From positions 1-36,540 of IMG/VR virus record IMGVR_UViG_3300036715_001408: a stretch of 36,540 nucleotides of DNA. The stretch is one strand, 5' to 3'. How positions within the stretch are numbered: the first letter of the stretch is position 1; each line of letters starts with the position of its first letter. A program made the position numbers and the translations under genes. The notes under the pieces are model-generated. The model was given only the letters and a program-made list of their open reading frames with translations. It ran no database searches and was not told the DNA's origin. The stretch is from a virus. Shown piece after piece: positions 984 to 29,462 of this stretch.

Positions 984-1370
984 TCAGGCCTCCTTCATCG
1001 GGCTCTGGGCACTCACCCTGTCAGCCTTCGTGCCGATCGACTGCATCTCCTTGCGCATCGCCTCGTGGTGATCGGAGAGGATGCGCTGGATCTCCTCGTG
1101 GTTGTCCTCGATCGCCTTCTTGTTCGTCTTCGAGTGGTGCACTGCCGCGACGCTGGCACCTGCCGCGACGGCAGCCGCGAGAGCCGACGAGACGTTGGTG
1201 TAGTTGCCCAGCGCGAGCGCGATGTTCACCGGCACCCACGACGGCAGGAAGACAGCGACGGGAACCAGCCAGATCAGCAGGATGAGGAGCCAGACGAGAT
1301 GTACCGGGGATGAGAGGATCACCGGGATCGCATCCAGGAAACGACGGAACGCCGACTTCTGCTCGGTCAT
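984..1370 (-). CDS. Small membrane protein with coiled-coil tail (128 aa), holin-like
   Basis: ATG at 1370 overlaps the stop of the preceding gene (TCATGA junction), implying translational coupling. Residues about 22-46 (VHLVWLLILLIWLVPVAVFL core) are strongly hydrophobic and a second Ala-rich hydrophobic stretch covers about 48-78, so two membrane segments are likely. The C-terminal third is charged and helical (KTNKKAIEDNHEEIQRIL) and may form a coiled coil. Two membrane segments plus a charged tail resemble class II holins, but no endolysin lies beside it and the gene sits in the tail region. It could instead be a membrane-interacting virion protein. The function is not recognised. Confidence 0.55.
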   Translation of the reverse strand: MTEQKSAFRRFLDAIPVILSSPVHLVWLLILLIWLVPVAVFLPSWVPVNIALALGNYTNVSSALAAAVAAGASVAAVHHSKTNKKAIEDNHEEIQRILSDHHEAMRKEMQSIGTKADRVSAQSPMKEA

Positions 1371-1828
1371 GACTCATCCAGATTCGTGTGCTCGAAGGTG
1401 AGTGGCCGACCAGCGATGGTGTCTGCCAGGAGCCGGTGGTGCCCGTCCAGGATGTGGTGCTGCCCGTCGTAGGAGAAGACGTGCGCTGGCTTGCTCGGCG
1501 GGTGGTTCATGTAGCGGATGACGGTCGCCGGGTCGATGACCTTCTCGTACCCACGCAGGTGGATCGAGCCAGGGGCGTGTGTCTCGATCGGACCCTTCGG
1601 CGCGAAGTACGCCTTATCCATCATCTCATCGTGGCGCTCGCTGTAGGCCGGGCAGTTCCCGTAGCCGCAAGGGGAATCGCCGAATCCGGCGTCGCGCAGC
1701 CACTGGTGCATGCGGTGCTCGTGGTGCTGCTCGTCGCGCCGACGCTCGTCCTCCTCGCTTGGAGGAGCGAAGTGGCGAGAGCCAGGCATCAGGCTGACGT
1801 CGGTGGCAGTGCGCCATAGCAGGCTCAT
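1367..1828 (-). CDS. MSLLW-family protein with ParB-like (LDGHHR) domain, copy C (153 aa)
   Basis: The start at 1828 is chosen because the gene begins with the same MSLLW leader as four neighbours and because ATG overlaps the upstream TGA. A longer upstream frame would run deep into the previous gene. The middle is charged and His/Glu-rich, with a Cys pair in PCGYGNCP. The C-terminal half reads VIDPATVIRYM, then FSYDGQHHILDGHHRLLAD, then AGRPLTFE. The IDP...DGHHR...A layout is the ParB/sulfiredoxin-like nuclease signature. Members of this fold act as CTP-dependent partition proteins, DNases or protein-modifying enzymes, so the substrate here is unknown. The leader codes ATGAGCCTGCTATGG, one base off the other copies. 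Confidence 0.7.
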   Translation of the reverse strand: MSLLWRTATDVSLMPGSRHFAPPSEEDERRRDEQHHEHRMHQWLRDAGFGDSPCGYGNCPAYSERHDEMMDKAYFAPKGPIETHAPGSIHLRGYEKVIDPATVIRYMNHPPSKPAHVFSYDGQHHILDGHHRLLADTIAGRPLTFEHTNLDES

Positions 1829-2322
1829 GACTCGTCCTTGACGTCGTGGTCCTCGGTGGGGATCCAGCGGCGGGGCTTGACGATGATGCCGACGTCGATC
1901 GGGTCTCCGTAGACGCCCTCGTGGACGTGGATGAAGTCGTGCCCCCGGGCCCGCAGCGCGAGGTTGCCCATCGCCGCGTCGTTGTAGTCCTTGTTGCCAC
2001 CGGGATGCGCGTCGCGGAACTCCCGGCCGAGCCCCTCCAACTGGCGGTGGGTGACGCTGACCGGGTTCTCCGAGTGCACGACGCCGTACTGCACCACCGG
2101 CCGCTTGCCGGAGAACTGCGCGGTGGCCTTGGCGTACTGCTCGGCATGGTCGCGGTTGCGGGTGACGTAGAGGCCGGGCCCGTGCACCTGGAGCCCGTGG
2201 AACCCGGAGTCGTGCTTGTGCAGGTCGTTGGCGGTGTCCTCGTCGGTGCCGTGCATCCACTCGTTCTCGTCGGGGTCGAACAGGTCGTCGGCCAGCAACG
2301 AGCGGACCCAGAGCAGGCTCAT
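1825..2322 (-). CDS. MSLLW-family protein, putative ADP-ribosyltransferase, copy B (165 aa)
   Basis: The start at 2322 carries the shared MSLLW leader and overlaps the stop of the upstream gene. After a short acidic linker the protein reads EWMHGTDEDTANDL, then HGPGLYVTRNRDHAEQYAKA, then a strand PVVQYGVVHSENPVSV. An HGT triad followed about 25 residues later by G-[LIV]-Y-[FV]-[TA] and an Ala/Tyr helix matches the His-Tyr half of the PARP/diphtheria-type (H-Y-E) ADP-ribosyltransferase fold, or the related DUF3990 group. E85 in HSENP or a later Glu could complete the site, but I cannot fix it. Known phage ARTs such as T4 Alt are packaged and injected to modify host RNA polymerase; a like role here is inference. 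Confidence 0.6.
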   Translation of the reverse strand: MSLLWVRSLLADDLFDPDENEWMHGTDEDTANDLHKHDSGFHGLQVHGPGLYVTRNRDHAEQYAKATAQFSGKRPVVQYGVVHSENPVSVTHRQLEGLGREFRDAHPGGNKDYNDAAMGNLALRARGHDFIHVHEGVYGDPIDVGIIVKPRRWIPTEDHDVKDES

Positions 2323-2993
2323 GCGGTCCTCGCCAACTGCTTCTCGTGGATAACCCGACCAGGGATGGACTCCTTGCCGAGCAGCAGGTCGGCCGAGACG
2401 CGGTGGTGCCCGTCGAGGCAGGTGTAGGACCCATCGGTGTGCTTGAGGAACCGGGGGAGGTCGGTCTTCGGCTGCGGCTTCCCGCCGTAGTTGCTGCCGA
2501 CCATGTCGTCGATCTCGCGGTGTCGGTCCTCGTCCCACTCGGGGTTGTAGTCCGGATCGCCCTCGGCCCCGTCCTCCTCGGGCGCTCGGGAGCCCGGGTG
2601 GAACAGGTTGTGCGCGACGCCGCTCGGCCGCACCCACGACTGGGAGGCCTTCATCCCCTTGAGCGGGACATCCGCGACGTGGGCCCGGTGCCACAGTTCC
2701 GGGGTGCGCATCTCCGCGCCTCCAGCATCGGCTCGGGCCTGGCCGCTGGCGTAGCCGGAGAAGCCGAAGTGCGAGGAGTCGGCGAGGTTGCCGGATTCGA
2801 TGTGGTTCTCGATCTTCTCCAGGGCTCGGTCGGCGTTCTCGCGCGGCACGTCATGCACGTCGGCGATGTGGTCGACGAGATCCTCTCGGCGCTTGTAGTA
2901 GGGGCGGCGGCCCTGGACCTCGCCGAGCCCGTCGGGGTCGGTCTCGGGGTCGTCGTCATGCCACGCCATCGCGCTCTTCCAGAGCAGGCTCAT
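2319..2993 (-). CDS. MSLLW-family protein with ParB-like (LDGHHR) domain, copy B (224 aa)
   Basis: It starts at 2993 inside the upstream TGATG junction and ends overlapping the next MSLLW gene. After the leader and an acidic linker, residues about 30-70 (YYKRREDLVDHIADVHDV...ALEKIENHI) look like a helical domain. A middle segment contains ELWHRAHVADVPL. The C-terminal domain reads REIDDMVGSNYGGKPQ, then LKHTDGSYTCLDGHHRVSAD and KESIPGRVIHEKQLARTA. The DGHHR turn with flanking strands is a ParB-like nuclease signature. It is the largest of the three ParB-like copies. The substrate is unknown. It ends in RTA, like several motifs in the giant virion proteins. Confidence 0.7.
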   Translation of the reverse strand: MSLLWKSAMAWHDDDPETDPDGLGEVQGRRPYYKRREDLVDHIADVHDVPRENADRALEKIENHIESGNLADSSHFGFSGYASGQARADAGGAEMRTPELWHRAHVADVPLKGMKASQSWVRPSGVAHNLFHPGSRAPEEDGAEGDPDYNPEWDEDRHREIDDMVGSNYGGKPQPKTDLPRFLKHTDGSYTCLDGHHRVSADLLLGKESIPGRVIHEKQLARTA

Positions 2994-3691
2994 CAGTGAC
3001 CCAACTCCCCGCGCCAGTTGCGGTCGGCGATGTAGACGCGCACCGGCAGGATGCCGTATCGCTGCGCAGCCAGGGCCATCGAGTTGTTGAGGAACAACTT
3101 CGGCGCGAGACCGGGGTGACGCCAGCGCACACCGACGTTGGTCCGAGCGATCTGGCCCGCGTTCTGGCCAGTGTCGTTCTTGCCGACGCGGGTGCCGATG
3201 CGACCAGGAGCACCCGGGTAGGACTGCGGCTTGTCGGAGACGACGGTGCGGATCCCAGTCACCGGGTCACGCCGGTAGACGACCTTGCGCGAGCCCTTGA
3301 TCGCAGCCTTGCGGAAGATCAGCACGAGGGTCCGGCCGTCCTCCGTGGTCTTGGTCTTGATCTTCGGGTTCTTCGCGCGCAACTTCCCGTCAGAGTCCTT
3401 GACCCACATAGGGATCGTCTTGCCCTGGAGGTTGTTCATCGTGAAGGGCCGGATGCCCTGCTCCTGGAACCAGGTGTAGCGATCCGGGAAGTAGATGCCG
3501 AAGAAGCCCTTGCCGTAGAGCGGCTGGATATGGCGGGCACTCGCGCCGGACATCTTGGGCATCCGCTTGCGGGCCATGTTGCAGGCCTCGTTCGCCGCTG
3601 CGCGAGCCTTTGCAGGACTCAACTTGTCGACGAATATGAGGATGCGATCAGGGTCCGACGACAGGGTGATCTCCGGGATCTCAGTCAGCAT
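2993..3691 (-). CDS. Putative minor structural protein inserted in the MSLLW cassette (232 aa)
   Basis: ATG at 3691 (MLTEIPEITL) overlaps the end of the upstream gene by 11 nt; the frame is open further upstream but that part lies inside the ART-like gene and is out of keeping. The protein is basic, without membrane segments. It contains a helix AKARAAANEACNMARKRMP, then ARHIQPLYGKGFFGIYFPDR and a TWFQEQGIRPFTM segment, then a basic beta-rich C-terminal half. The small-helix-then-beta pattern with a GxxPF turn resembles HK97 gp10-like head-tail joining or tail completion proteins, which would suit its position a few genes before the sheath. It lacks the MSLLW leader of all its immediate neighbours, so it splits that cassette. 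The assignment is tentative. Confidence 0.55.
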   Translation of the reverse strand: MLTEIPEITLSSDPDRILIFVDKLSPAKARAAANEACNMARKRMPKMSGASARHIQPLYGKGFFGIYFPDRYTWFQEQGIRPFTMNNLQGKTIPMWVKDSDGKLRAKNPKIKTKTTEDGRTLVLIFRKAAIKGSRKVVYRRDPVTGIRTVVSDKPQSYPGAPGRIGTRVGKNDTGQNAGQIARTNVGVRWRHPGLAPKLFLNNSMALAAQRYGILPVRVYIADRNWRGELGH

Positions 3692-3974
3692 CTGAGTGCT
3701 CCACTCGACGCCCGCGCACCGCAGGATCATGGACGAAGTAGTAGCCGGGCAGCCCCTGGGCCTCTGCCTCGTGCGGCTGCACATCCAGGTGGTAGACCTT
3801 GCCGTCAGGCTGAGTCTTGGAATATCGCGTGGCTGAGTCGAGGTTAGTCGTCCACCACCCGCCTGCCATGTCGCTCTTGGCCGGGTAGTAGGAGGGGGCC
3901 TCATGTGAGCCCTCGCCCCGATACAGCCGGAGTGAATCAGTCGGAGCAGCGGCCTTCACCCAGAGCAGGCTCAT
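3681..3974 (-). CDS. MSLLW-family protein, putative small ADP-ribosyltransferase-like domain, copy A (97 aa)
   Basis: It starts at 3974 with the shared leader, overlapping the upstream TGA. The body is DSLRLYRGEGSHEAPSYY, then GGWWTTNLDSATRYSKT, then VYHLDVQPHEAEAQ and GYYFVHDPA. An LYRGE strand followed by GxWxTxxxxxAxxY resembles the Arg and Ser/Thr elements of R-S-E type ADP-ribosyltransferase-like folds seen in phage toxins and MuF-associated domains. At 97 residues it is shorter than a full catalytic ART (usually 150 or more), so it may be a minimal or degenerate version. It differs in sequence from the H-Y-E-like copy at 1825-2322. The function is unproved; a non-enzymatic binding domain is possible. 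Confidence 0.5.
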   Translation of the reverse strand: MSLLWVKAAAPTDSLRLYRGEGSHEAPSYYPAKSDMAGGWWTTNLDSATRYSKTQPDGKVYHLDVQPHEAEAQGLPGYYFVHDPAVRGRRVEHSDAD

Positions 3975-4579
3975 CAGTCGCGCTCCCAGTCCGGGGTGCC
4001 ACCACAGTCGGAGCAGTACTCCTTGTGCTCCTGGCACTCGTGGCAGTGCTCCGGTCCGGCCTTGGGGTCGTCGGCGTCGAAGACCCGAGCCTGCATCGTC
4101 GGCTTGCCCAGCAGCCGATGCTCCATGAAGCGGTGGTGCCCATCGAGGAGATAGTGCTGTCCCTGGTGGTGGACGACGATCGGGTCCTCTGTCGGCTCAT
4201 GCTCGTCGAACTGCTCGTCGTGCTCGGGGTACTCATCCTCGATGTGGGCGCTGTCGATCTTGTGATGGACGATCCCCGGGATATAAGTGGGCTGCGTGTA
4301 GTGGAAGGCCCCATCGAGCGGGACATCCTTCCACGGCAGGTGGTGGGTGTGGACGTTGCCCAGCGTGGCGCTTGCCCCCCACAGTCCGCGCGAGACCTCG
4401 TGCGCCTTCTCGGGGTGAGCCCACCGGCCGAAGTTGTCGGGGATCTCGGAGACATGGGCATAGTCGTTCGGCGTCGTCTTCTGCCGGTCGACCCAGTTCT
4501 TCACGCGCTCCACCCGGTGCTCGCGAGCCTCCGGCGAGGCGTCCTCCCACGATCCGACGCGGGCCCAGAGCAGGCTCAT
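3974..4579 (-). CDS. MSLLW-family protein with ParB-like domain and C-terminal zinc-binding tail, copy A (201 aa)
   Basis: First of the cassette in transcription order. ATG at 4579 sits in a TGATG junction, with GGAGGA about 8 nt upstream inside the preceding gene. The N-terminal part is charged and helical. The core reads DVPLDGAFHYTQPTYIPGIV, then PIVVHHQGQHYLLDGHHRFM, then LLGKPTMQARVFDADDP; the LDGHHR turn marks a ParB-like nuclease domain. Unlike the other two ParB-like copies it ends in a Cys/His cluster (CHECQEHKEYCSDCGG) that should bind one zinc. It is likely a DNA- or protein-acting enzyme delivered or made late in infection. The target cannot be read from the sequence. Confidence 0.7.
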   Translation of the reverse strand: MSLLWARVGSWEDASPEAREHRVERVKNWVDRQKTTPNDYAHVSEIPDNFGRWAHPEKAHEVSRGLWGASATLGNVHTHHLPWKDVPLDGAFHYTQPTYIPGIVHHKIDSAHIEDEYPEHDEQFDEHEPTEDPIVVHHQGQHYLLDGHHRFMEHRLLGKPTMQARVFDADDPKAGPEHCHECQEHKEYCSDCGGTPDWERD

Positions 4580-5341: not shown

Positions 5342-6961
5342 TCAGCCAGCGCGGTAGAACGCGATGTTGCCCCTGAGCCGCTCATCGTCAGGAGAGCATC
5401 CTAGAGCCATCTGGCCCATCTTGACCGCCTGGTCGCGTAGTCCGAGGTGGTGCGCCGCGATGGCCCCGAGGTCCCACGGGTGGCTGTCCCAGGCCCACGG
5501 CTCGCACAGGTAGTCCAGCGGCTTCTCGGTGATGGCCTGGGCCTTCTTCGCAGCCCACAGAGCGCCCTCCCAGGCCCCCTGGAGGTAGTAGTGGTTGGCC
5601 AGGGCCACCCACGGCTCACGACGCCCTGGGGCCTCCGCAGCGGCCTTGAGGTACCACCCCTCGGTGTGCTCTCTCTCTATCCCGCCCAGGTAGATCATCG
5701 CCCGGCTCCTCTCGGCGTCCCAGGCCGAGCAGGCCAGGTGCCGGTGGAACATCGCAGCAGCCTCGTCTCTCCGACCGACGGAGAGGTACTCGCGGGCGAG
5801 GTAGTAGATGTTTCGATCTCCGGTGGGGTCCTCGGCGACAGCCAGTTCGAGCAGCGGGAGGTACTGCGACCGGCTCTTCGAGTTGTCGGCGTGGTGATGG
5901 ATCTCCAGGTCGGCCCGACCGGTGATCTCGGTGAAGCCTGGCCGAGGGGTGAGGGTCTCGTGTACCGGATGACGCCACTCGTGCGTGAGCCGGTGGTGGA
6001 TGTGGTCGGCCTCGAAGACGGTCCCCTCGGACCCGTCCTCGTTCCAGTTCCAGACGTAGCGGTAACGGGGCCGGGTGATGCCACGGGACCAGGCATCCTC
6101 CAGGGCCTCGCGCCAGCCCGGGGTGAGCACCTCGTCGAGGTCGAGCGACACGCATAGGTCGATGTTGGTCGGGAGGCAGGCGAGCGCCGAGTTGCGGGCG
6201 ACATCGAAGCGCCACTCGTCGAAGAACTCGGTGATGACGCGGACGCCGTTCTCCTTCGCTAGCCGGACCGTGGCGTCGGCTGAGCCGGTGTCGAGGATGA
6301 ACAGGTGGTCTGCCTCCTTGGCCGATTCGGCCCAGCGGGCGACGTGCTTCTCCTCGTTGAGCGCGATGGCGTAGACGGCGACCCTCATCGCACGCCGGGG
6401 CTCAGGCCGCTTGCGGAGCCATACCTGCACGTTGCTGATCAGCAGGTCGTACTCGCCCTTGGCGGCTTCGAGGAACTCGTCGATCGCTGGTCGCGGCGCG
6501 TTTGCCGGGTCGGGTGCTCGCCAGACGTAGTCGTCAAACGCGATGATGCCGCCGGGCGCGAGTGCGATCCAGGCGTTCTCCGCGTCCCTGGCGACCTGGG
6601 CCTTCTCGTGCGATCCGTCGATGTAGACGAAGTCGAACTCGTCGGTCGAGCAGGCCGAGAAGAACTCGTCGCTGGTGCCTCGGAAGATGTCGAGCGGACC
6701 GCCGTACCAGGGGGCGACTCGCTCCATGTAGGTGGTCTCGACGTCGTCCCAGTCGAAGGTTCCGTGGATCTCCTCGTTGGCCGTTCCCTCCCACGTGTCG
6801 ACGTCGGTGAGGTGCGAGCCCTCGGCCATGTGGTTCAGGATCCACTCGGAGGCGTGGCCGACGTACGCGCCGATCTGGAGGACGCGGATCGGTCGGTCGG
6901 TGGGGAAGCCCTGCTCGAAGTTCCCCTGGGCGGACTGGGCGAACCAGTTGGGGTAGTCCAT
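5342..6961 (-). CDS. Methyltransferase-glycosyltransferase-TPR fusion protein (539 aa)
   Basis: ATG at 6961, 4 nt after the previous stop. Three domains are visible. Residues about 20-185 form a class I SAM-dependent methyltransferase: motif I VLQIGAYVGHASEWIL, acidic post-I VDTW, and FVYIDGSHEKAQVARDAENA, then LAPGGIIAFDDYVW, as in the Methyltransf_24 group. Residues about 193-380 form a GT2 (GT-A fold) glycosyltransferase: VAVYAIALNEEKHVARW, then FILDTGSADATVRLAKENGV, with the metal-binding SLDLDEVL acidic motif at 273-278. Residues about 385-539 are helical TPR-like repeats. It likely adds, and perhaps methylates, sugars on protein; the neighbouring collagen-like and Gly-rich fibres are plausible substrates. 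Glycosylated virions are known in actinobacteriophages, but the substrate here is inferred from context. Confidence 0.8.
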   Translation of the reverse strand: MDYPNWFAQSAQGNFEQGFPTDRPIRVLQIGAYVGHASEWILNHMAEGSHLTDVDTWEGTANEEIHGTFDWDDVETTYMERVAPWYGGPLDIFRGTSDEFFSACSTDEFDFVYIDGSHEKAQVARDAENAWIALAPGGIIAFDDYVWRAPDPANAPRPAIDEFLEAAKGEYDLLISNVQVWLRKRPEPRRAMRVAVYAIALNEEKHVARWAESAKEADHLFILDTGSADATVRLAKENGVRVITEFFDEWRFDVARNSALACLPTNIDLCVSLDLDEVLTPGWREALEDAWSRGITRPRYRYVWNWNEDGSEGTVFEADHIHHRLTHEWRHPVHETLTPRPGFTEITGRADLEIHHHADNSKSRSQYLPLLELAVAEDPTGDRNIYYLAREYLSVGRRDEAAAMFHRHLACSAWDAERSRAMIYLGGIEREHTEGWYLKAAAEAPGRREPWVALANHYYLQGAWEGALWAAKKAQAITEKPLDYLCEPWAWDSHPWDLGAIAAHHLGLRDQAVKMGQMALGCSPDDERLRGNIAFYRAG

Positions 6962-13751: not shown

Positions 13752-15124
13752 ACGATGCCGTAGCCGGAGCCGCCGAGGTTACCGTTGCCGCCGAGGCCCG
13801 GGTTCATCCCGACGCCACCACCGCCACCGCCACCACCCGCGAGGCCACCTACACCGCCATCGCCACCGGCACCACCAGCGAAGATCGTTGCTCCACCGCC
13901 GCCACCACCGGATCCACCGATGATGCTGCTCCCGGCAGCACCGGGACTGCCGGTACCACCGGGTGAACTTGAGCCACCGTCAGTGCCTGCCGCGCCGCCG
14001 CCGCCGGTCGCATAACTGTTGGAAGCCCCACCGGGGCCAGCGACGGTCGTGGTCGGGGTTGCTGTGTGTCCACCGCCGGAACCGCCGCCGCCGCCGCCGC
14101 GCATGGACGAGCCACCAGCCGGGCCAGTCGCGGTCGGCGGGTTCGCGGAACCAGCACCGCCACCGCCGCCCCACTCGGCGCAGTTCGTGGCTGCCGTGGC
14201 AGCAGCAGTCTGCGCGACACCGCCGATAGCGCCAGCGCCACCAGCGGAACCGCCGGAGGTCGGGGCCGCGCTGTACCAGGGGTAGCCACCAGCGCCAGCG
14301 GCACCTGAACCAGTGACCCCTGCACCAGCCGTGCCACCGCCTCCGCCACCGCCAGTGATCTGAGCAGAAGCAGTTCCACCGGAGCCACCCCCACCGCCGA
14401 AGGCGGAGAGATACGTGCCGAACGTCGTCGTGCCGCCGACTCCGCCAGCGCCACCACCGGCACCTGCGGCACCCTTGGCTCCGGCCGAACCTCCGGTCCC
14501 GATGGTGACCGCTACCGTGCTCGGAAGATCAGCCGAGGTGAAGTCGCGCCAGTTCGCACAACCACCACCGCCACCGCCGCCACCCTTGGCGACGACAGCC
14601 GTGGCGAGGGACGCACCAGCGCCACCGCCGCCACCGGCACCCCAGAGAAGGACGCGGTGGAACTTCGGGACGAAGTTGGTCGGCTTGGTCCAAGTCCCGT
14701 TGACGGAGAAGGGCTGGACGTCCGACGCTCCGCTGGCCCCGCTGGTGATGGGGATGCCTGCGCTGTTGACGTGGATGAAGCCGACGCCCGAGGAGTAGAT
14801 CAGCGACTCTCCAGCGGCCAGGATCGTCGAGAAGAGAGTGGCCGCGACGGTCCCGTCGTAGTGCACGACCGAGATCGTGTTCGAGATCGAGGCGTCCTCG
14901 TTGTGGATCGTGAGCAACTCGATGGATCGCTGGGTCACGGAGGCCGGTGATGCGACCAGGGTGGTATTGCCGATCGAGGAGATCGACGTGTTAGTGCTGT
15001 CCGGCGTCGTCGTGGTCACCCCAGCGCTGACCGTGGCGTCAATCCACGAGGCGTGCACCGATAGGGCGGCCGTCGCCGAGGTGTTGACGCGGATGACCTC
15101 CGACGTCGTGGCGAGAATCAGCAT
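13739..15124 (-). CDS. Glycine-rich tail adhesin (461 aa)
   Basis: ATG at 15124 (MLILATTSEVIRVNTSATAA). Residues 1-150 form a beta-rich head domain (SIELLTIHNEDASISNTISV, SLIYSSGVGFIHVNS). A linker FSVNGTWTKPTNFVPKFHRV introduces the Gly-rich domain at about 155-455, built of runs of Gly interrupted by short strands such as STVAVTIGTGGSAG and TTFGTYLSAFGG. It ends NLGGSGYGIVLSW. Such domains (Gly_rich_2 type, compare polyglycine-sandwich adhesins of T4-like phages) form exposed receptor-binding tips. The Gly runs are coded by GGN tracts that make the locus prone to slippage and length change. The assignment is strong for fibre/adhesin, weak for receptor. Confidence 0.8.
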   Translation of the reverse strand: MLILATTSEVIRVNTSATAALSVHASWIDATVSAGVTTTTPDSTNTSISSIGNTTLVASPASVTQRSIELLTIHNEDASISNTISVVHYDGTVAATLFSTILAAGESLIYSSGVGFIHVNSAGIPITSGASGASDVQPFSVNGTWTKPTNFVPKFHRVLLWGAGGGGGAGASLATAVVAKGGGGGGGGCANWRDFTSADLPSTVAVTIGTGGSAGAKGAAGAGGGAGGVGGTTTFGTYLSAFGGGGGSGGTASAQITGGGGGGGTAGAGVTGSGAAGAGGYPWYSAAPTSGGSAGGAGAIGGVAQTAAATAATNCAEWGGGGGAGSANPPTATGPAGGSSMRGGGGGGSGGGHTATPTTTVAGPGGASNSYATGGGGAAGTDGGSSSPGGTGSPGAAGSSIIGGSGGGGGGATIFAGGAGGDGGVGGLAGGGGGGGGVGMNPGLGGNGNLGGSGYGIVLSW

Positions 15125-21519: not shown

Positions 21520-22509
21520 TCAGGACTTGGTGATGCTGGCGAGGCCGCGCGGGTTGAGGATGGCCATCGAGACCATCTCGTCGAAGACCCAGCCCTTCCA
21601 GAACGCCTCGACGTTGTGGTTCTCCTCGACGTCCAGGCTGTAGAGCACCGGGAAGACACCGAGGAAGTTGGGCTCCGGCGTGAGGAACACCTTGCCCTGG
21701 GGCACGATGATCGAGCGCTGGATCTGGAACTCGCCGAACGAGGTGATGGTCTCGCCCGCGACGACTCGGTCCTTGAACGCCCAGCCGGTCTGGTTGATGT
21801 CCCAGCGGTAGAGGTCGCGGAAGTCGAACGGGTTGATGAGGATGCGAGCGGACTGCAACTCGTGCAGGTCCGTCATCGCCACCGCCGAGTAGAGCGAGCC
21901 GGGGGTGAGGTACCCGGACGCCTCGGTGATGTTGTGGTTGGGCGTGACCGTGTGGTCCGGGCGCGAGGCGTAGTCCGTGATGGCCGCCTGGAGCAGGACC
22001 AGGAGGCGCGAGTCCTCCTGCTTGAGGATGGCCTGCTTGGTCTCGTCCTGCGCCTGCTCGACCGCGTTGATGCGGAGGTAGAACAAGTCCTCCTTGCGGA
22101 TCGCCGGACGCGAGGCGATGCGGAAGAACCGCACCGGGACGCGCTTGCCCTCGAACGGGGTCACGCGGACCTCGCCCTCGGTGCCGGACAGGATGTAGGC
22201 CTGGCCGAGGTCGTCCCAGACGTCGTACTCGACCGGGGTGCCCGGGGTGACCGGGTCCTCGACGAGGACGTTGCGCACGATGCCCTGGTAGCGCAACTTC
22301 AACTGGATCGGGCCGATCATGCCGACGCCGAGGCGACGGATGCCGGAGACCTCGTCCTGGAGGATGAGGGCCATCTTCTTGACCTTGGCCTCGTGGGTGA
22401 GGCTTGCGCCCCGCTCACGACGCTCGATGATGCTGGCGACGTAGTCGTCGCTCTTGCGCGCGACCTTGCCCTGGAGGCCGGAGGCCGTGGCAACGAGTCC
22501 CTGACTCAT
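21520..22509 (-). CDS. Major capsid protein, HK97 fold (329 aa)
   Basis: ATG at 22509 (MSQGLVATASGLQGKVARKS). The layout is that of an HK97-fold capsid subunit: a helical N-arm (IIERRERGASLTHEAKVKKM), a beta-rich middle (IQLKLRYQGIVRNVLVEDPV, EGEVRVTPFEGKRVPVRFFR), a long spine-type helix (INAVEQAQDETKQAILKQED), and a C-terminal axial domain with LQSARILINPFDFRDLYRW, IIVPQGKVFLTPEPNFLGVF and WKGWVFDEMVSMAILNPRGL. About 330 residues is usual for this family. It follows probable scaffold and decoration genes in the expected order and is followed by a strong hairpin. The N-terminal arm may be trimmed by the protease encoded at 26541-29462. No single motif is decisive, but order and fold pattern agree. 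Confidence 0.85.
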   Translation of the reverse strand: MSQGLVATASGLQGKVARKSDDYVASIIERRERGASLTHEAKVKKMALILQDEVSGIRRLGVGMIGPIQLKLRYQGIVRNVLVEDPVTPGTPVEYDVWDDLGQAYILSGTEGEVRVTPFEGKRVPVRFFRIASRPAIRKEDLFYLRINAVEQAQDETKQAILKQEDSRLLVLLQAAITDYASRPDHTVTPNHNITEASGYLTPGSLYSAVAMTDLHELQSARILINPFDFRDLYRWDINQTGWAFKDRVVAGETITSFGEFQIQRSIIVPQGKVFLTPEPNFLGVFPVLYSLDVEENHNVEAFWKGWVFDEMVSMAILNPRGLASITKS

Positions 22510-23273: not shown

Positions 23274-24053
23274 TCAGAGGAAGAGGTCCTCGTCGCCACC
23301 GTCAAGCGAGGCGGTGGTGGACAGGGACGAGGAGTCCGGGACGAGCGACGGGCTGACCCGCTGCACTCCGGCCGAGCGCGGAACCGTGCCGGTCGAGCGC
23401 GAGGCCTGACGACGCGGACGGGCATCCACGACCTTCGAGAGGACGCGGACCTCGTGCTCCAGCATCTCGTTGGAGATGCTGGCGTCCTTCTCGATCTTCG
23501 CAGCGAGGACGAGGTCGTCGCCCTGCGCCAGACCGGCCGAGACGCGGAGCCGCGCGAGGTGCATCGCAGCCATGGTGCGGTTGGCTGCGATGGTCCACGG
23601 GAACGCGGGCTGCGGGTCGTCCGGGTTGCCGACGCGGACGTCGACCTCGGTGCGCACTGCGGGCAGCGGCACCTCTCCGGTGTTGGTGCCTGCGACCGGA
23701 GCGGTCACGTCGACCTGCTGGCCGAAGGGCGAGGTGGGCAGGGACTCTCCGACGTTGGTCGGGTTGTCCTGCATCTCCGCCGCGAGTCCGTTCATGGAGC
23801 CGGGGGTGGCCCCCATGACCGTCGGGTCGTCGTGGGCCTCGGCGGTGGCGGCCTGCTCGGTCGTCTGCGAGGGCCCCTGCTCGCCCGGGTCCGGGACCGG
23901 CTGCGCGGGGTTGTTGATGTCGGCGGTCTTCGCTGCGATGGCGGTCATCTGCGGCTGGAGACCAGCGACGTGTGCGATGAACGCGACCTGGGCACGGAGG
24001 GTCGCGATCTCTCGCTGCTGCTCCTGCATCGCCTGCACGAGGGGACGGGCCAT
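23274..24053 (-). CDS. Probable capsid scaffold protein (259 aa)
   Basis: ATG at 24053 (MARPLVQAMQEQQREIATLR) after GAAGGTAGG. Residues about 5-32 form a coiled coil. The middle is Pro/Gly/Thr-rich and probably disordered, and a second helix covers about 160-215 (AANRTMAAMHLARLRVSAGL, DASISNEMLEHEVRVLSKVV). The C-terminus is basic then acidic (QASRSTGTVPRSAGVQ ... GGDEDLFL). Helical, flexible proteins between protease and major capsid genes are commonly scaffolds, which nucleate shell assembly and are then removed by the protease. It contains an AAKTAD site like the SKTA motifs of neighbouring giants. The role is inferred from position and composition. Confidence 0.65.
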   Translation of the reverse strand: MARPLVQAMQEQQREIATLRAQVAFIAHVAGLQPQMTAIAAKTADINNPAQPVPDPGEQGPSQTTEQAATAEAHDDPTVMGATPGSMNGLAAEMQDNPTNVGESLPTSPFGQQVDVTAPVAGTNTGEVPLPAVRTEVDVRVGNPDDPQPAFPWTIAANRTMAAMHLARLRVSAGLAQGDDLVLAAKIEKDASISNEMLEHEVRVLSKVVDARPRRQASRSTGTVPRSAGVQRVSPSLVPDSSSLSTTASLDGGDEDLFL

Positions 24054-24138: not shown

Positions 24139-26541
24139 TCACACCATCATCGAGGAGATCGACTGCATGGCCGCCTGACCGCACCGGGGGCAGGCGTCGC
24201 CCTCGATCATGCCTGGGCTCGCGACCTGCGAGTCCATGGCAGAGTCGCCCTGACTGGTCGGCTGGCCGCCGTCGGCCTGGAAGCCGCAGGCGGGGCAGAT
24301 GAGGTCGGACACGCCGTCGTCCGGTGTCCCGGGCTCGCCGTCGGTGGCCGGAGCGGGCTCCTGCCCATCCATGCCAGGCTCGGGGATCCCCTGCTGCGAC
24401 GGGTCGATCGGGTTTCCCTCCTCGTCCAAGCCACCGGGCTCAATAGGCTGCTCAGGGCTCGGCGCGTTCGGACCAGGGGCGAAGGGCTCGCCCCCCTGGT
24501 TGAAGTACGTGTTGGCCGCACCCGGGTCGATCGGCTGGCCGCTCTCGTCGAGGTTCCCCGGGATGAGCATGTCGTTGGACGCCGACTGTGCGTCGGCCGC
24601 TGCGATCCCGTTGGGGTCGGCCTGGTCGGTATTCGGCATGGCGTCCCCGCCGCCGGGCTGCGTCGGGTCGTTCGGGTCGCCACCGATCATGCCGTCCTCG
24701 GACAGGGCGCTCGGGTCCATGGGGTCGTTGAGACCCATACCGCCGCCCTGGTTCTCCTGCGCCCCAGCACCACCGACGACATCACCATCAGCGTTCATGC
24801 CTGGCTGCTCGATGCCGTTCTGGTCGGCCACGTCCTTGCGGAGGTCGACCTCCCGGGCTACCGAGGTGTCGGGGTCCATGAACATCTGCGGGGGACGGAA
24901 GAAGCCGCAGACCTGGCATCGGTCGCCGTCCCACGAGTCATCGTTGCCGCAGACCGGGCACTCAGACTCGCGCAGCGTGTCGACGTCGTTGGGGGCCTTG
25001 ATGTCGCCGTACGCGAGCCGGTCCATGCGCGAGCCCTCCTTGGTGACGCCCTTCCCCTCGGACTTGAGGTTGACGGCGTGCTTCACGTCCTCGGGGGCCG
25101 ACGAGTAGCCGGTTCCGGGGATCTTCCCGAGCAGGCCCGGGTGGTGCTCGCCAGCGTAGGAGTTCCAGTGCTCGATCGACTTGCGAGCGAGCGATGCGCT
25201 GGAGGACGACGAGGTCTTCGAGGCAGCACGGTCCTCCTCCTCGTTCAGCCGCTGACGGACGAGCCATGTCGCCGCCTGCACCTGGTGCGCGCTGACCTTG
25301 TGGCCGACCTTCTTCGAGATGCGCTTGGCTGCGAGGTGGTAGGCGTGAGAGGCCTCGTCGTAGCGGCCCTTGTTGCCCAACTTCGAGTAGGAGTAGGCGA
25401 TGTCGGATGCACGTCGGCCGGTGGCTACGGAGAGCGCGTGACGGTCGATGACCACGTGCGAGTCATTGTCATCGGCGTTCCCGCCGTGCTCGATCAGGTG
25501 AGCGAACGCGCGAGTCTTCGGACCGGCCAGCACCTTGTCGTAGTGCTCGCCATCGAGCATGCGACCGGCGGCCTTCTTCTGATTCTCCGAGGCCAGCACG
25601 CCTTCGCCCTTGCCGCCCATCGGCGTCTTGGTCCGAGCGACCTTCGCAGCGGTCATGATGTTGGTGGCCCAGTGGGTCTGGGGCGAGTAGTTCGAGACAA
25701 GCCCGGCCATCACGTGCATCGGCGTGCCCGTGTCGTTGGCGATGTGCTTGGCCATGTGGTGGGCATCGTGGTACCACGACATGCCGGTGTGGATCTCGTC
25801 CGGAGTGGCCTTGTCCCAGTGGTCGACGATGTGCTTCGCGTTGATCTTGTGCTTCGCGTTCCAGGCTTCCCCCTCAGCCTTCTCGCGAGCCACCGTCTGC
25901 TTGTGCACCTCGTACTCGGAATCGGACATCTCGCCGACCGGCTTCTTCGGCTTGGCCTCGAAGAAGTAGAGGAAGGCCTCCAGGGTCAGCGAGGCGTTTC
26001 GGTCCAACTCCTTGAAGCGCTGGCGATCCGCGTACGACAGCGGCTCGTCCTCGGGGTGGTTGAACTGGGTGTAGGAGTCGCCGTTGCGCTTGACCCACGA
26101 GTTGAGGTGCCGCTGGAGACGAGACCGGGTGTACTTGCTCGCGAGTCCCTCGATCTCGTCGTGCCCCATGGCATCGCTGTAGCCCGGCAGGTGCGGCGAG
26201 TCGACCGGCTGGTCGCCGTCGTAGATGTGGTAGCGAGACCCGCCGTTGTACTCCGCGCGGTAGCCGCTCGGGTGCTCGGCGAAGAACCGGCGGGGACCGG
26301 CCGCCTCGACGTCGATACCTGCCTCCGACTCGGCAGCAGCGTCCGGTGTGTCGATCGGGTAGGCCTGGTGGGGCACCCCGGCACCGGCCGTGATGTCGTG
26401 CTGCCAGGAGTACTTGTCGGGGCTTCCGTCGTTGACCTTGTAGATGTCCGAGCCACAGATACGGCACGAGGACATCTCTCGCCCCGAGTGCTTGCCTGCG
26501 GCCTCTTCGTCCTTGGGGTACGGACCAGCGGTCGTCCTCAT
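24139..26541 (-). CDS. Zinc-ribbon protein with DUF7178-like core (800 aa)
   Basis: ATG at 26541 (MRTTAGPYPKDEEAAGKHSG) is nested in the protease stop (TGATG), as at other junctions here; an in-frame ATG 10 codons earlier is possible. An N-terminal CRICG sits at 26-30. Residues about 135-158 (RLQRHLNSWVKRNGDSYTQ) resemble a segment of the protease fusion. The core at about 240-435 reads SWYHDAHHMAKHIANDTG, VMAGLVSNYSPQTHWATNI, then KTRAFAHLIEHGG and SHVVIDRHALSVATGRR, the pattern of the phage/plasmid DUF7178 group as I recall it. A zinc ribbon CPVCGN...CQVCG lies at 528-546. The last 250 residues are Gly/Pro/Asp-rich and end in a second ribbon (CPACG...CPRCG). It is probably an internal virion protein; the activity is unknown. 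Confidence 0.6.
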   Translation of the reverse strand: MRTTAGPYPKDEEAAGKHSGREMSSCRICGSDIYKVNDGSPDKYSWQHDITAGAGVPHQAYPIDTPDAAAESEAGIDVEAAGPRRFFAEHPSGYRAEYNGGSRYHIYDGDQPVDSPHLPGYSDAMGHDEIEGLASKYTRSRLQRHLNSWVKRNGDSYTQFNHPEDEPLSYADRQRFKELDRNASLTLEAFLYFFEAKPKKPVGEMSDSEYEVHKQTVAREKAEGEAWNAKHKINAKHIVDHWDKATPDEIHTGMSWYHDAHHMAKHIANDTGTPMHVMAGLVSNYSPQTHWATNIMTAAKVARTKTPMGGKGEGVLASENQKKAAGRMLDGEHYDKVLAGPKTRAFAHLIEHGGNADDNDSHVVIDRHALSVATGRRASDIAYSYSKLGNKGRYDEASHAYHLAAKRISKKVGHKVSAHQVQAATWLVRQRLNEEEDRAASKTSSSSSASLARKSIEHWNSYAGEHHPGLLGKIPGTGYSSAPEDVKHAVNLKSEGKGVTKEGSRMDRLAYGDIKAPNDVDTLRESECPVCGNDDSWDGDRCQVCGFFRPPQMFMDPDTSVAREVDLRKDVADQNGIEQPGMNADGDVVGGAGAQENQGGGMGLNDPMDPSALSEDGMIGGDPNDPTQPGGGDAMPNTDQADPNGIAAADAQSASNDMLIPGNLDESGQPIDPGAANTYFNQGGEPFAPGPNAPSPEQPIEPGGLDEEGNPIDPSQQGIPEPGMDGQEPAPATDGEPGTPDDGVSDLICPACGFQADGGQPTSQGDSAMDSQVASPGMIEGDACPRCGQAAMQSISSMMV

Positions 26542-29462
26542 CAGTGCCCTCGCTCCTGGATGTCGTCCCATGAACTCGCGAAGCCCGGGTGCAACTTGAG
26601 ACCTGAGATCTCCCGCGCAGTGTGCCAGTCCGCTCCGCCATGCTCATCATCGTCCCCGGGCGGGTCGAACTGATTGTCCACGTCAGCGATGACCGTGTAG
26701 TACTTCCAGCCGCCGCAGTCGCTGATGTGGGTGTCCCGGACACGGAAGTTCGGCAGCGCGTGCATCTCCTCCAGGCCCTCTCGGATCGCACCGTGCACCG
26801 GGGTCTCACCGGGGGCGAGCGCGCCACCAGGGATCGAGTGGGTGTTCGGATGGTCGACCTTCGGCCCACGCTTCTGGAGAAGGTAGCGCGTCTCGCCGTC
26901 ATGCCCACGGTGGCGCAGCAGGAGGCCAGCAGCGCCTCCTGCGCCCCAGTGCTCGTGACCCTCGGTGCACTTCACCATCCGGTCGTTCGAGCCGCCAGCG
27001 GCCGTCCTGGAGCCTCGGCACTGGTGCTGCGCGATCAGCGAGTCGATGATGCCCTGGCCGAACTGCTCATGAGGCACAGTCCTGTAGTCGTATCCACCGC
27101 ACGTCGGGCAGTGGTAGGTCACCTGGTCGTTCGGCTTGTGCTGGATGACGTCGATCGGCGTCGGGCTGATCACCCGCTGGTCGAGCGAGGCGTGGTGGGT
27201 GCGCTGCCAGCGACGGATGCGCGGGTCGCTCATGTTCTGGGCGTACTCGTCCCCATGCTCGCCGACCCAGTGGTTCAACTTCTTCTGGAGGGTCGGCCGG
27301 TCGATCTTCTGCGCCCCGTAGCCGTCGGGGTTCGACACGTTGAAGACGTCATGGTCCTCGTCGTCGCCGGTCGCCTCGTGCCCGATGCCGATGTAGACGC
27401 CGCCCCGGTCCTTGGCATGCCAGCCCGACGGGTGGGTCACCTTGGCGTACGGCTCGTCGTCCTCGTCGAACTTGATGTGCTCCGGCTTGTGCCCCTTGTC
27501 GAGCAGATCGCTCATCGTCTGGGTCCGGCGCTCGGAGGCCCGAGACTCGTCGGTGCCGCCCGGGTCGAAGATGTCCATCATCCCCTTCCACAAGGACTTG
27601 CCGAGTTCCTCGCCCTTGTTTGCGGGCAGGTCGAGACCATGCCTGATCTCCTCGTCGGACAACTCGGCGGTCTTGCTGGCCGAGTGGAAGTGGCTCTCCC
27701 CCACGATGATTCCGGGGTAGTCGCCGGGCGAGTGCTTGTGGTCGTGGGCGTGCAGCCTCTTCAACTCGCCATGGCGTAGCGGCCGGTCGTCGCCGTGGGC
27801 GATGTCGAGCGCCGGGTGGTCCTCGTCGTAGGAGTTGCGCCAGAAGTCAGCGGGGTATATGTCGTGCGCCTCGCACAGGTGCGACTTGAGGTCGGTGGGG
27901 TCGGCGAGGTTCACCTCGCGCTTCTGGCCGTGCTCGTGCATCTGCGCCCGCATCTCGCCCGCGTCGCGCATCTGCTGGTAGAAGTTCCGGTCGTCGTCGG
28001 ACAGCGGGATCTCGAAGGACTCAGCCATGGTCCGAAGGGACGAGGCGAAGTGCGAGGCCATCGACGAGAGAGAGTGCATCGTCTCGTCCTCGGGGCCAAA
28101 GGTCCGGTGCTCGGCATCGGTCCACTTCTCGCCCTGCGGGTAGGGGCCAGCGTTCTCCTGGTAGCCGAGGCTCTTCGGGTTGCCCTCGCAGGGAGAGGCG
28201 TGCAGAGCGCCACGGGAGAGCCACTCACCCGGGTGCTTCGACGAGCCGCCCTGGTAGTAGACGGTCGTAGTGTTCGGGCAGTGCTCGCAGTGGATGTTGA
28301 TGACGCCCTTGCCAGCGACACCCATCGGCTTGTGGCCCATGAGTCGCGCCTGGTGCATCGTCTCCAGGGTGTGGTCTATCCCGTTCTGCTGGCGCTCAGG
28401 CATCTCGTAGTACGACGCCGGTCGGTGGGGTGCGGGATCGAAGTCGAACAGCCCAGCCATCACCGACAGGCTCGACCACTTCGTCGGGCCGATCGTCTTG
28501 TGCCGGAGCAGCCACGCTTCGTTGCTGCCCTTGAAGGCGTCCTCGACGTTCCGCTCGGCGCTCTGGTAGTCCGGGTGGCCCGGGTCCAGGTGCGGCGGGT
28601 CCATGTGCTCGCCCTTGGAGTGCGGTGCCTCGTGGTCCTGGCACCACTCGTTGTCGCACGGCTCGTCATCCTCGGTCGCGGCCGACCAGCCGCACTGCAT
28701 GCACTGGCCGTGCCGGTTCCACGATCCGTCGTGAGGACAGGTGGCCTGGTCGCGCATGGCCGTCTTGCTCGCGGTAATCGCCAGGCCGGATGTGTCGACC
28801 CCGGTGAAGAACGCAGTCGGATCGGCAGGCTCCTCGACGAGCAGGCTGTTCTCGAAGAAGCGCAGCCCGTAGCAGATCTCGCGGACGAGGATGCCCTCCT
28901 TCCTTCCCGTCTTCGGGTCGGCCCGATAGATCCGCTGGCCCTTCATTCGCGGGATGTGCTTGCAGTACTCGGCCGGGTTGGTGGCCTTGTTGTCGCAGAC
29001 CGAGCAACGCGAGTAGTCGACGTCGCAGCCCATCGAGGTGCGGTCGATGTCGCCCTTGATGATCGCCTTGGCCAGTCGCGGGAAGCGGACTGCATCGACC
29101 TCCATGAGGCCCTCGACCCAGGTGTCGGGGGCACCGCTGGGAAGGGTGTCGCGGTGGAGCGCCGCGTCGATGATGACCCCACGCATGCGGCGGTGGTCGT
29201 CGTTGTGGTGGTTGACGAAGACCGGCTTGCCGATGAAGGTCTTGTAGCCCTTCTCGATCTCGGGGGCCGGGAACTCGTCGAAGTTGTCATTGCAGCGAGA
29301 CGAGATCATCCGCGACCTCACGTAGAGGTATCCAGCGCGCGGGGTGTAGTTGAAGTGGTGCCGGTGCGCGACCTTGAGGGCTCGGCGGGCAGAGCGATTC
29401 GCGTCCTGGGGTACCAGGACCGAGTCCAAGATCTTTACATCTGCCACAGCGAACTTGAGCAC
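26541..29462 (-). CDS. Prohead protease fused to long linker and C-terminal Nudix hydrolase (973 aa)
   Basis: GTG at 29462 after GGAGG. Residues about 1-225 form a prohead protease: KTFIGKPVFVNHHNDDHRRM (His85/His86), WVEGLMEVDA, then KGDIDRTSMGC with probable nucleophile Ser143, as in the S78/HK97-type assemblin fold (a separate zinc-binding loop CSVCDNKA...YCKH follows). The family is usually 180-250 residues, so over 700 residues are extra. They hold zinc motifs (CPHDGSW...CMQCGW, CEHC, HCPTCGG), an IGPTKWSS site, SKTA sites at about 232 and 596, and a Nudix domain at about 828-973 with the box GALAPGETPVHGAIREGLEE. Nudix enzymes split nucleoside diphosphate-linked substrates. The protease may cut its own C-terminal part away at maturation. 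Confidence 0.8.
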   Translation of the reverse strand: MLKFAVADVKILDSVLVPQDANRSARRALKVAHRHHFNYTPRAGYLYVRSRMISSRCNDNFDEFPAPEIEKGYKTFIGKPVFVNHHNDDHRRMRGVIIDAALHRDTLPSGAPDTWVEGLMEVDAVRFPRLAKAIIKGDIDRTSMGCDVDYSRCSVCDNKATNPAEYCKHIPRMKGQRIYRADPKTGRKEGILVREICYGLRFFENSLLVEEPADPTAFFTGVDTSGLAITASKTAMRDQATCPHDGSWNRHGQCMQCGWSAATEDDEPCDNEWCQDHEAPHSKGEHMDPPHLDPGHPDYQSAERNVEDAFKGSNEAWLLRHKTIGPTKWSSLSVMAGLFDFDPAPHRPASYYEMPERQQNGIDHTLETMHQARLMGHKPMGVAGKGVINIHCEHCPNTTTVYYQGGSSKHPGEWLSRGALHASPCEGNPKSLGYQENAGPYPQGEKWTDAEHRTFGPEDETMHSLSSMASHFASSLRTMAESFEIPLSDDDRNFYQQMRDAGEMRAQMHEHGQKREVNLADPTDLKSHLCEAHDIYPADFWRNSYDEDHPALDIAHGDDRPLRHGELKRLHAHDHKHSPGDYPGIIVGESHFHSASKTAELSDEEIRHGLDLPANKGEELGKSLWKGMMDIFDPGGTDESRASERRTQTMSDLLDKGHKPEHIKFDEDDEPYAKVTHPSGWHAKDRGGVYIGIGHEATGDDEDHDVFNVSNPDGYGAQKIDRPTLQKKLNHWVGEHGDEYAQNMSDPRIRRWQRTHHASLDQRVISPTPIDVIQHKPNDQVTYHCPTCGGYDYRTVPHEQFGQGIIDSLIAQHQCRGSRTAAGGSNDRMVKCTEGHEHWGAGGAAGLLLRHRGHDGETRYLLQKRGPKVDHPNTHSIPGGALAPGETPVHGAIREGLEEMHALPNFRVRDTHISDCGGWKYYTVIADVDNQFDPPGDDDEHGGADWHTAREISGLKLHPGFASSWDDIQERGH
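28470..28493 (-). repeat. 24-nt repeat coding IGPTKWSS, copy in the protease fusion
   Basis: Identical over 24 nt to 35576-35599 in the giant protein gene. Both code IGPTKWSS in the same frame, preceded by a related VEDA/VDDA helix segment. Confidence 0.85.

Follow-up and report, generated by a model that had tools for sequence, protein, structure and literature searches.

A split, module-shuffled prohead protease polyprotein with a RenU-type Nudix domain: a candidate for head-packaged cargo in an actinophage-like virus

Described head-packaged effectors and the position of this locus

A previous study of phage Nudix domains described their fusion to MuF, portal or capsid-processing serine peptidase domains and proposed that they are packaged and injected, so that Nudix domains fused to capsid peptidases and read as injected cargo are already known, and the fusion principle is the same as in the gene analysed here (Iyer et al. 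2022; PMC9503650, in the text searched). The Nudix domains in that portion of the text are of the T4 NudE type, and RenU-type domains, split polyproteins, joint motifs and leaders do not appear in it. Polyvalent proteins, which string many effector domains (ART, GNAT, ParB, 2H, InPase) together in a single phage polypeptide encoded close to head genes (Iyer et al. 2017; PMC5512222), resemble the focal chain in carrying several effectors, whereas the focal chain begins with a prohead protease and has candidate protease sites at its joints. Phage T4, with its head-packaged IPI-III and gpAlt (an ART) and its gp21-fold protease, is alike in kind (PMC9958956), but its cargo is encoded by separate genes and the focal candidate cargo is fused to the protease. 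The short N-terminal capsid-targeting sequence of T4 IPII and IPIII (PMC9958956) and the N-terminal signal of P1 DarB (PMC9024508) are both alike in kind to a leader described below, MSLLWxxA, although the T4 sequence differs from it. In SPN3US, gp245 processes its own chain as well as head and ejection proteins, all at one tripeptide, AXE (PMC10052503); the candidate site of the focal system parallels this, but the motif differs and SPN3US has no fused cargo array. RenU (PMC4401782; PDB 6uuf) is a free cytosolic mycobacterial enzyme, whereas the focal Nudix domain is part of a phage polyprotein. Finally, Myrna gp97, Tonenili BI081_gp249 and Pupper gp94 are orthologous protease genes with the conserved tail and the same synteny, but unlike the focal gene they lack a Nudix domain.

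The present analysis concerned a 36.5-kb metagenomic fragment of a soil phage (IMG/VR record IMGVR_UViG_3300036715_001408, 36,540 nucleotides; hereafter the window) with a GC content of 66.7%. A search of the window DNA against phage records gave no match. Its genes run gp96-like, protease, gp98-like, major capsid protein, an order also found in Myrna, Tonenili and Pupper, where the protease gene likewise closely precedes the capsid gene. We therefore regard the virus as distantly related to the actinophage myoviruses of cluster C. A scan of bacterial genome contigs for a host met no relative; the GC content and the relatives make an actinobacterium the likely host. Our main reading, to which we give a probability of about 0.52, is that the focal gene carries head-packaged cargo in cis on its prohead protease, that this cargo would be released by self-cleavage and injected, and that its Nudix domain would act on ADP-ribose-like or FAD/NADH-like nucleotides. 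Relative to the literature searched, the new points are that the Nudix domain is of RenU type, that the polyprotein is split and its modules shuffled, that the candidate joint site recurs in the capsid protein and the scaffold, and that there is a leader, MSLLWxxA.

Protease, Nudix domain and polyprotein architecture

The focal ORF is an uninterrupted reading frame of 973 codons (Table 1). Its N-terminal part matches PHROG 18299, 'head maturation protease' (E 6.6e-22), and also PHROG 2774. An AlphaFold model of the protease domain, predicted alone with 20 relatives, had a pLDDT of 80, and its best PDB match was T4 gp21 (5jbl; Z 9.2 over 127 residues, 2.8 A), followed by the herpesvirus proteases (assemblins); viral models in BFVD named prohead protease matched it as well. 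These PDB matches, like those of the DUF7178 model below, came from a VIA second look; with Foldseek alone neither model had a confident match in the PDB, and a profile search of PDB sequences with the protease returned nothing. Judged by the model, residues ~39-226 are predicted to fold like the T4 prohead protease gp21 and the assemblins. The sequence-only reading had assigned the protease domain to the first ~225 of 973 residues, and the PHROG matches and a fold that extends to residue 226 agree with it. The candidate catalytic His85, Asp123 and Ser143 do not vary among 24 relatives, nor in the distant proteases of Erwinia and Burkholderia jumbo phages, and the CxxC..CxH motif is likewise kept even in these jumbo phages. 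Two uncultured phage proteins in BFVD that are annotated as ferritin/Dps (A0A6J5N5R9 and A0A6J5RFH1) also match the protease model, which suggests that they are prohead protease-Dps fusions.

Table 1 Features of the focal locus and of related genes, with positions in the window
Feature	Positions	Strand	Remarks
Prohead protease–module array–Nudix gene (ORF1)	26541..29462	-	973 aa, GTG start
Prohead protease domain, residues 1-226	28785..29462	-	fold 39-226; candidate catalytic His85, Ser143, Asp123
Zinc-knuckle-like CxxC..CxH, residues 153-169	28956..29006	-	inside protease domain
Candidate cleavage site K233-T-A235	28758..28766	-	protease/module joint
Cys/His module 'ZnA', residues 237-334	28461..28754	-	module profiles
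Module 'MID', residues 346-484	28011..28427	-	shared only with L001/L002
Module 'HFHT', residues 487-597	27672..28004	-	other positions in L005, L003, L004, L002
Candidate cleavage site K597-T-A599	27666..27674	-	
Module 'HPSG', residues 615-757	27192..27620	-	also ORF2, L002-L005, L036
Cys module 'C2', residues 756-820	27003..27197	-	module profiles
Candidate cleavage site R819-T-A821	27000..27008	-	cut after A821 would free 152-aa Nudix
RenU-like Nudix hydrolase domain, residues 836-972	26547..26957	-	Pfam, PDB similarity
Nudix box, residues 880-902	26757..26825	-	E886 R894 E895 E898 E899
TGATG stop-start overlap	26539..26543	-	couples split polyprotein genes
ORF2, polyprotein second half	24139..26541	-	likely start MRTTAGPYPK; ORF finder start 26571
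DUF7178 module of ORF2	25231..25845	-	Pfam PF23802, 8.8e-40
Conserved tail module 1 (KAPxDVDTLR..CPVCG..DLRK)	24832..25014	-	module profiles
Conserved C-terminal zinc-ribbon-like module of ORF2	24160..24315	-	module profiles
Scaffold-like coiled-coil/acidic gene	23274..24053	-	[KR]xAD-xNPAQP site
Major capsid protein	21520..22509	-	PHROG 2522; candidate propeptide site GKVA/RKSDDYV
ParB-like gene	3974..4579	-	leader MSLLWARV
Small ART-like gene	3681..3974	-	leader MSLLWVKA; motif only
ParB-like gene	2319..2993	-	leader MSLLWKSA
ParB-like gene	1367..1828	-	leader MSLLWRTA

At the other end of the protein, Pfam PF00293 matches residues 855-954 with an E of 6e-10 and 39.6 bits, above its curated cut-off of 21.1 bits. 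The Nudix box reads GALAPGETPVHGAIREGLEEMHA against the consensus GX5EX7REUXEEXGU. It contains every catalytic Glu, as had been claimed, together with R894, and these five residues are invariant in 11 of 11 relatives; two non-catalytic positions of the box deviate (U to G896 and G to H901). The top solved relative is RenU (6uuf; 5.8e-35, 123.5 bits, the next reaching 43.1 bits), which the focal domain resembles over its full length, including WGxxGAAGLLL and LHPGFAxSW. RenU acts by preference on ADP-ribose, FAD and NADH and leaves NAD+ uncleaved (PMC4401782). This makes NAD+ as such an improbable substrate of the focal domain, and the earlier proposal of NAD as a target loses ground; removal of ADP-ribose-like nucleotides is the most likely role, with redox or FAD/NADH targets next. 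In a comparison of the window with L002, the Nudix domain had a dN/dS (NG86) of about 0.30 and the protease one of 0.31, whereas three modules that separate the two gave 0.79-1.16. The Nudix domain is thus under purifying selection as the protease is, and the neighbouring modules and linkers are without such constraint.

The fusion itself recurs. A second IMG/VR contig (L001) is 100% identical, and a Nudix domain of the focal type lies on the protease ORFs of other viruses in differing contexts (L002, L024, L036 and L050), so the survey of homologues that the sequence-only reading had proposed found the fusion in independent IMG/VR relatives with varied domain orders. Such domains also occur on portal proteins (L044, L048) and on a portal-MuF protein (L047), in part accompanied by a 2H phosphoesterase-like domain, and they are absent from most relatives. 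A tree of the Nudix module gave no order among the fusions. Among 50,697 phage records no known isolate with a protease-Nudix fusion was found, and the nearest Nudix domains were those of jumbo-phage MutT-like genes at ~30% identity. A 1494-aa protein (L045) of the L022 virus combines Nudix and 2H phosphoesterase domains and is located in a different stretch of that genome from its protease gene.

Relatives were drawn from IMG/VR and their modules mapped with one profile per module. The protease and the C-terminal tail are conserved in them, tail module 1 being found in nearly all, including Myrna, Tonenili and Pupper, and the middle is a variable array. Judged from the reading frames, the focal protein is one half of a split polyprotein, the start of ORF2 lying inside the stop of ORF1 (TGATG). 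The DUF7178 module and the tail are within the protease ORF in most relatives, but in ORF2 in the window; a similar split is present in L002 and L004, and in L005 and L032 the polyprotein breaks at another place. We considered a missed sequencing error or read-through as the source of the split and regard either as unlikely, because two TGA codons stand in tandem and L002 and L004 have a like split. The protease ORFs of relatives range from 575 to 2013 aa, the shortest (L029) being nearly only protease and tail, and the longest single ORF (L036) placing several effector domains on one polypeptide in a head-gene context: protease, GNAT, Nudix, GNAT, DUF7178, HPSG, two ART-like modules (so labelled from motif inspection alone) and tail. 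HFHT and ZnA are swapped in L005, and the scaffold gene is joined to the protease ORF in L007. Because split and fused forms coexist, covalent linkage is not essential, as is expected if the modules end up separate. The 'zinc motifs' of the sequence-only reading are present, as the CxxC..CxH motif within the protease domain and as two Cys-rich modules (residues 237-334 and 756-820), but the middle as a whole is a shuffled module array.

The model of the DUF7178 module had a pLDDT of 88, and its best PDB match was the 8-oxoG glycosylase 3knt (Z 12.1), with mostly glycosylases in the leading rows but a Foldseek E of 0.6. We tentatively assign it a predicted HhH-GPD DNA-glycosylase-like fold, tentatively because the module is all-helical. 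Myrna and Tonenili have a standalone DUF7178-like form, encoded downstream of the capsid gene (L039:14689-16599).

Candidate processing sites and a shared leader

The [KR]TA tripeptides of the focal protein at residues 233, 597 and 819 coincide with module joints defined by BLAST. The variable regions contain 53 copies of [KR]TA and their shuffles 11; in the window it was enriched in head and cargo genes (10 against 1.4) and without enrichment in 20 tail and other genes (4 against 3.9). Module starts lay within 20 aa of a [KR]TA in 40 of 212 cases against 15 after rotation, a value reached in 0 of 500 rotations, though these nulls are simple in that shuffles ignore dipeptides, the motif is short and the sequences are related. 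Sites of the wider [KR]xA type are also seen where the protease is joined on its N- and C-terminal sides, ahead of the conserved SDDYV part of the capsid protein (GKVA, GRVA, VRTA, RKSA) and ahead of NPAQP in the scaffold. Two relatives deviate: in L024 the nearest KTA is more than 30 residues ahead of the Nudix domain, and in L050 the site is KVA. We put [KR]TA forward as a candidate prohead-protease site; the kinship of the sequences and the simplicity of the nulls leave it a statistically supported hypothesis and not a proven site.

Four window genes start with MSLLW, three of them ParB-like and one ART-like by motif, and ParB-like modules also occur within the protease ORFs of relatives. 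A DNA pattern for M-S/T-L-L-W gave 14 matches in 20 related records against 3 with the reversed pattern; nine of the matches are starts of real-looking genes, which with the four of the window makes 13, and Ala stands at leader position 8 in 12 of these 13. The leader is shared by several unrelated body types, Arr-like ADP-ribosyltransferase domains included. ART-like genes had been claimed for the same transcription unit; one gene of 97 aa (3681-3974) fits this by motif (LYRGEG...WWTTNLDSATRYS), but Pfam found no ART in the window and no match for this gene, and the claim is accordingly weak. A profile of eight residues built from the leaders and the capsid-protein junctions and run over the polyproteins scored joints no better than shuffles or controls, and for that reason we rejected the idea that leader and joint are one motif; only the tripeptide is common to both. 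Three of the four MSLLW genes of the window are coupled by an identical TGATGAGCCTGCTCTGG stop-start. Among the related records, a domain resembling the rifampin ADP-ribosyltransferase Arr (PF12120, up to 5e-8) occurs on MSLLWxxA-tagged proteins of L094, L095 and, more weakly, L096, and in the cultured phage Tonenili a gene adjoining the head genes (L040, about 14549-14890) has the leader-like N-terminus MLLPWRTAMPWYG.

Proposed mechanism and competing readings

In the mechanism that we propose, the polyprotein would co-assemble inside the prohead through its protease and, by way of ORF2, through the conserved tail and the scaffold. The protease would cut itself, the scaffold, the N-terminus of the capsid protein and the joints between modules, probably after [KR]-[TSV]-A, and so free single modules, including a RenU-type Nudix hydrolase of 152 aa. 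The freed modules would remain in the capsid and enter the host along with the DNA, probably to disarm it. In the host the Nudix enzyme may break down nucleotides of the ADP-ribose or FAD/NADH kind, which would be NAD-derived defence signals of the host or else ADP-ribose produced by phage ARTs. Other effectors would be loaded by the leader. The broader proposal, of a delivery system in this actinophage-like lineage in which modules travel either in cis, cut at [KR]TA, or in trans with the MSLLWxxA leader, and in which effector types switch between the two routes, is a tentative one that we hold to be somewhat less probable than its negation. If it is true, a predicted protease site and a targeting leader would form a code by which head-packaged proteins, unknown modules included, could be read from sequence, and the vague idea that phages inject effectors would become testable in a lineage that includes well-studied phages of Mycobacterium smegmatis and Gordonia; a RenU-type Nudix enzyme in the head would suggest that ADP-ribose or redox nucleotides need clearing at once on entry.

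Like the sequence-only reading, we favour a packaged and released Nudix enzyme of ADP-ribose type because the domain is RenU-like, the joints carry [KR]TA, the same domain sits on portal and portal-MuF proteins, and it is under purifying selection; that reading had overlooked the split of the polyprotein and the leader-tagged modules encoded elsewhere. Prohead proteases usually leave the head or get destroyed, however, so fused modules might be lost with them, and the two non-canonical Nudix-box positions, the deviating sites of L024 and L050 and the failure of the eight-residue profile also count against cargo. An unlikely competitor is a Nudix enzyme that acts inside the cell that makes the phage, in the late phase, either released into the cytoplasm or still part of the chain, where it would clean up the nucleotide pool or clear ADP-ribose produced by phage ARTs. 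RenU is itself a cytosolic redox and nucleotide housekeeping enzyme (PMC4401782) and the genomes of relatives carry Arr-like ART genes, but the Nudix domain is repeatedly fused to proteins of the capsid interior (protease, portal, portal-MuF) and not just encoded beside them, and fusion would bring a cytosolic enzyme no evident gain.

It is more doubtful still that the middle region acts as filler of the internal core or scaffold and thereby determines the size of the head, its modules being domesticated folds for which catalysis is not needed. The wide variation in length and the fast evolution of the spacer modules beside conserved tail and scaffold parts would suit a filler, whereas the invariance of all catalytic Nudix residues (11/11) and a Nudix dN/dS of about 0.3 would not, nor would L029, nearly devoid of a middle region and yet with a genome record about as long. 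That the Nudix domain remains joined to the protease as a sensor of a nucleotide such as ADP-ribose or NADH, and so controls protease activity or capsid maturation, seems improbable to us: the fusion is covalent and the Nudix fold can serve as a ligand sensor in transcription factors (NrtR; PMC9503650), but catalytic residues are retained, position and partner modules vary among relatives, the domain also occurs on portals, and most relatives do without it. A chance fusion or assembly artefact, conceivable for a metagenomic virus fragment, is refuted to near certainty by the identical second contig and by independent relatives with different arrangements.

Two further elements of the window stand apart from the polyprotein. 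A recurring, hairpin-like element with a Shine-Dalgarno sequence, about CTTCYCCGANGAAGGGGTAGGAG, occurs on the minus strand at 310, 5319, 13730, 21405, 24111, 29489 and 31370, mostly in intergenic positions just upstream of late genes, including those for the protease, scaffold and capsid protein. At 5342-6961, amid the tail genes, lies a fusion of a methyltransferase and a glycosyltransferase-like domain.
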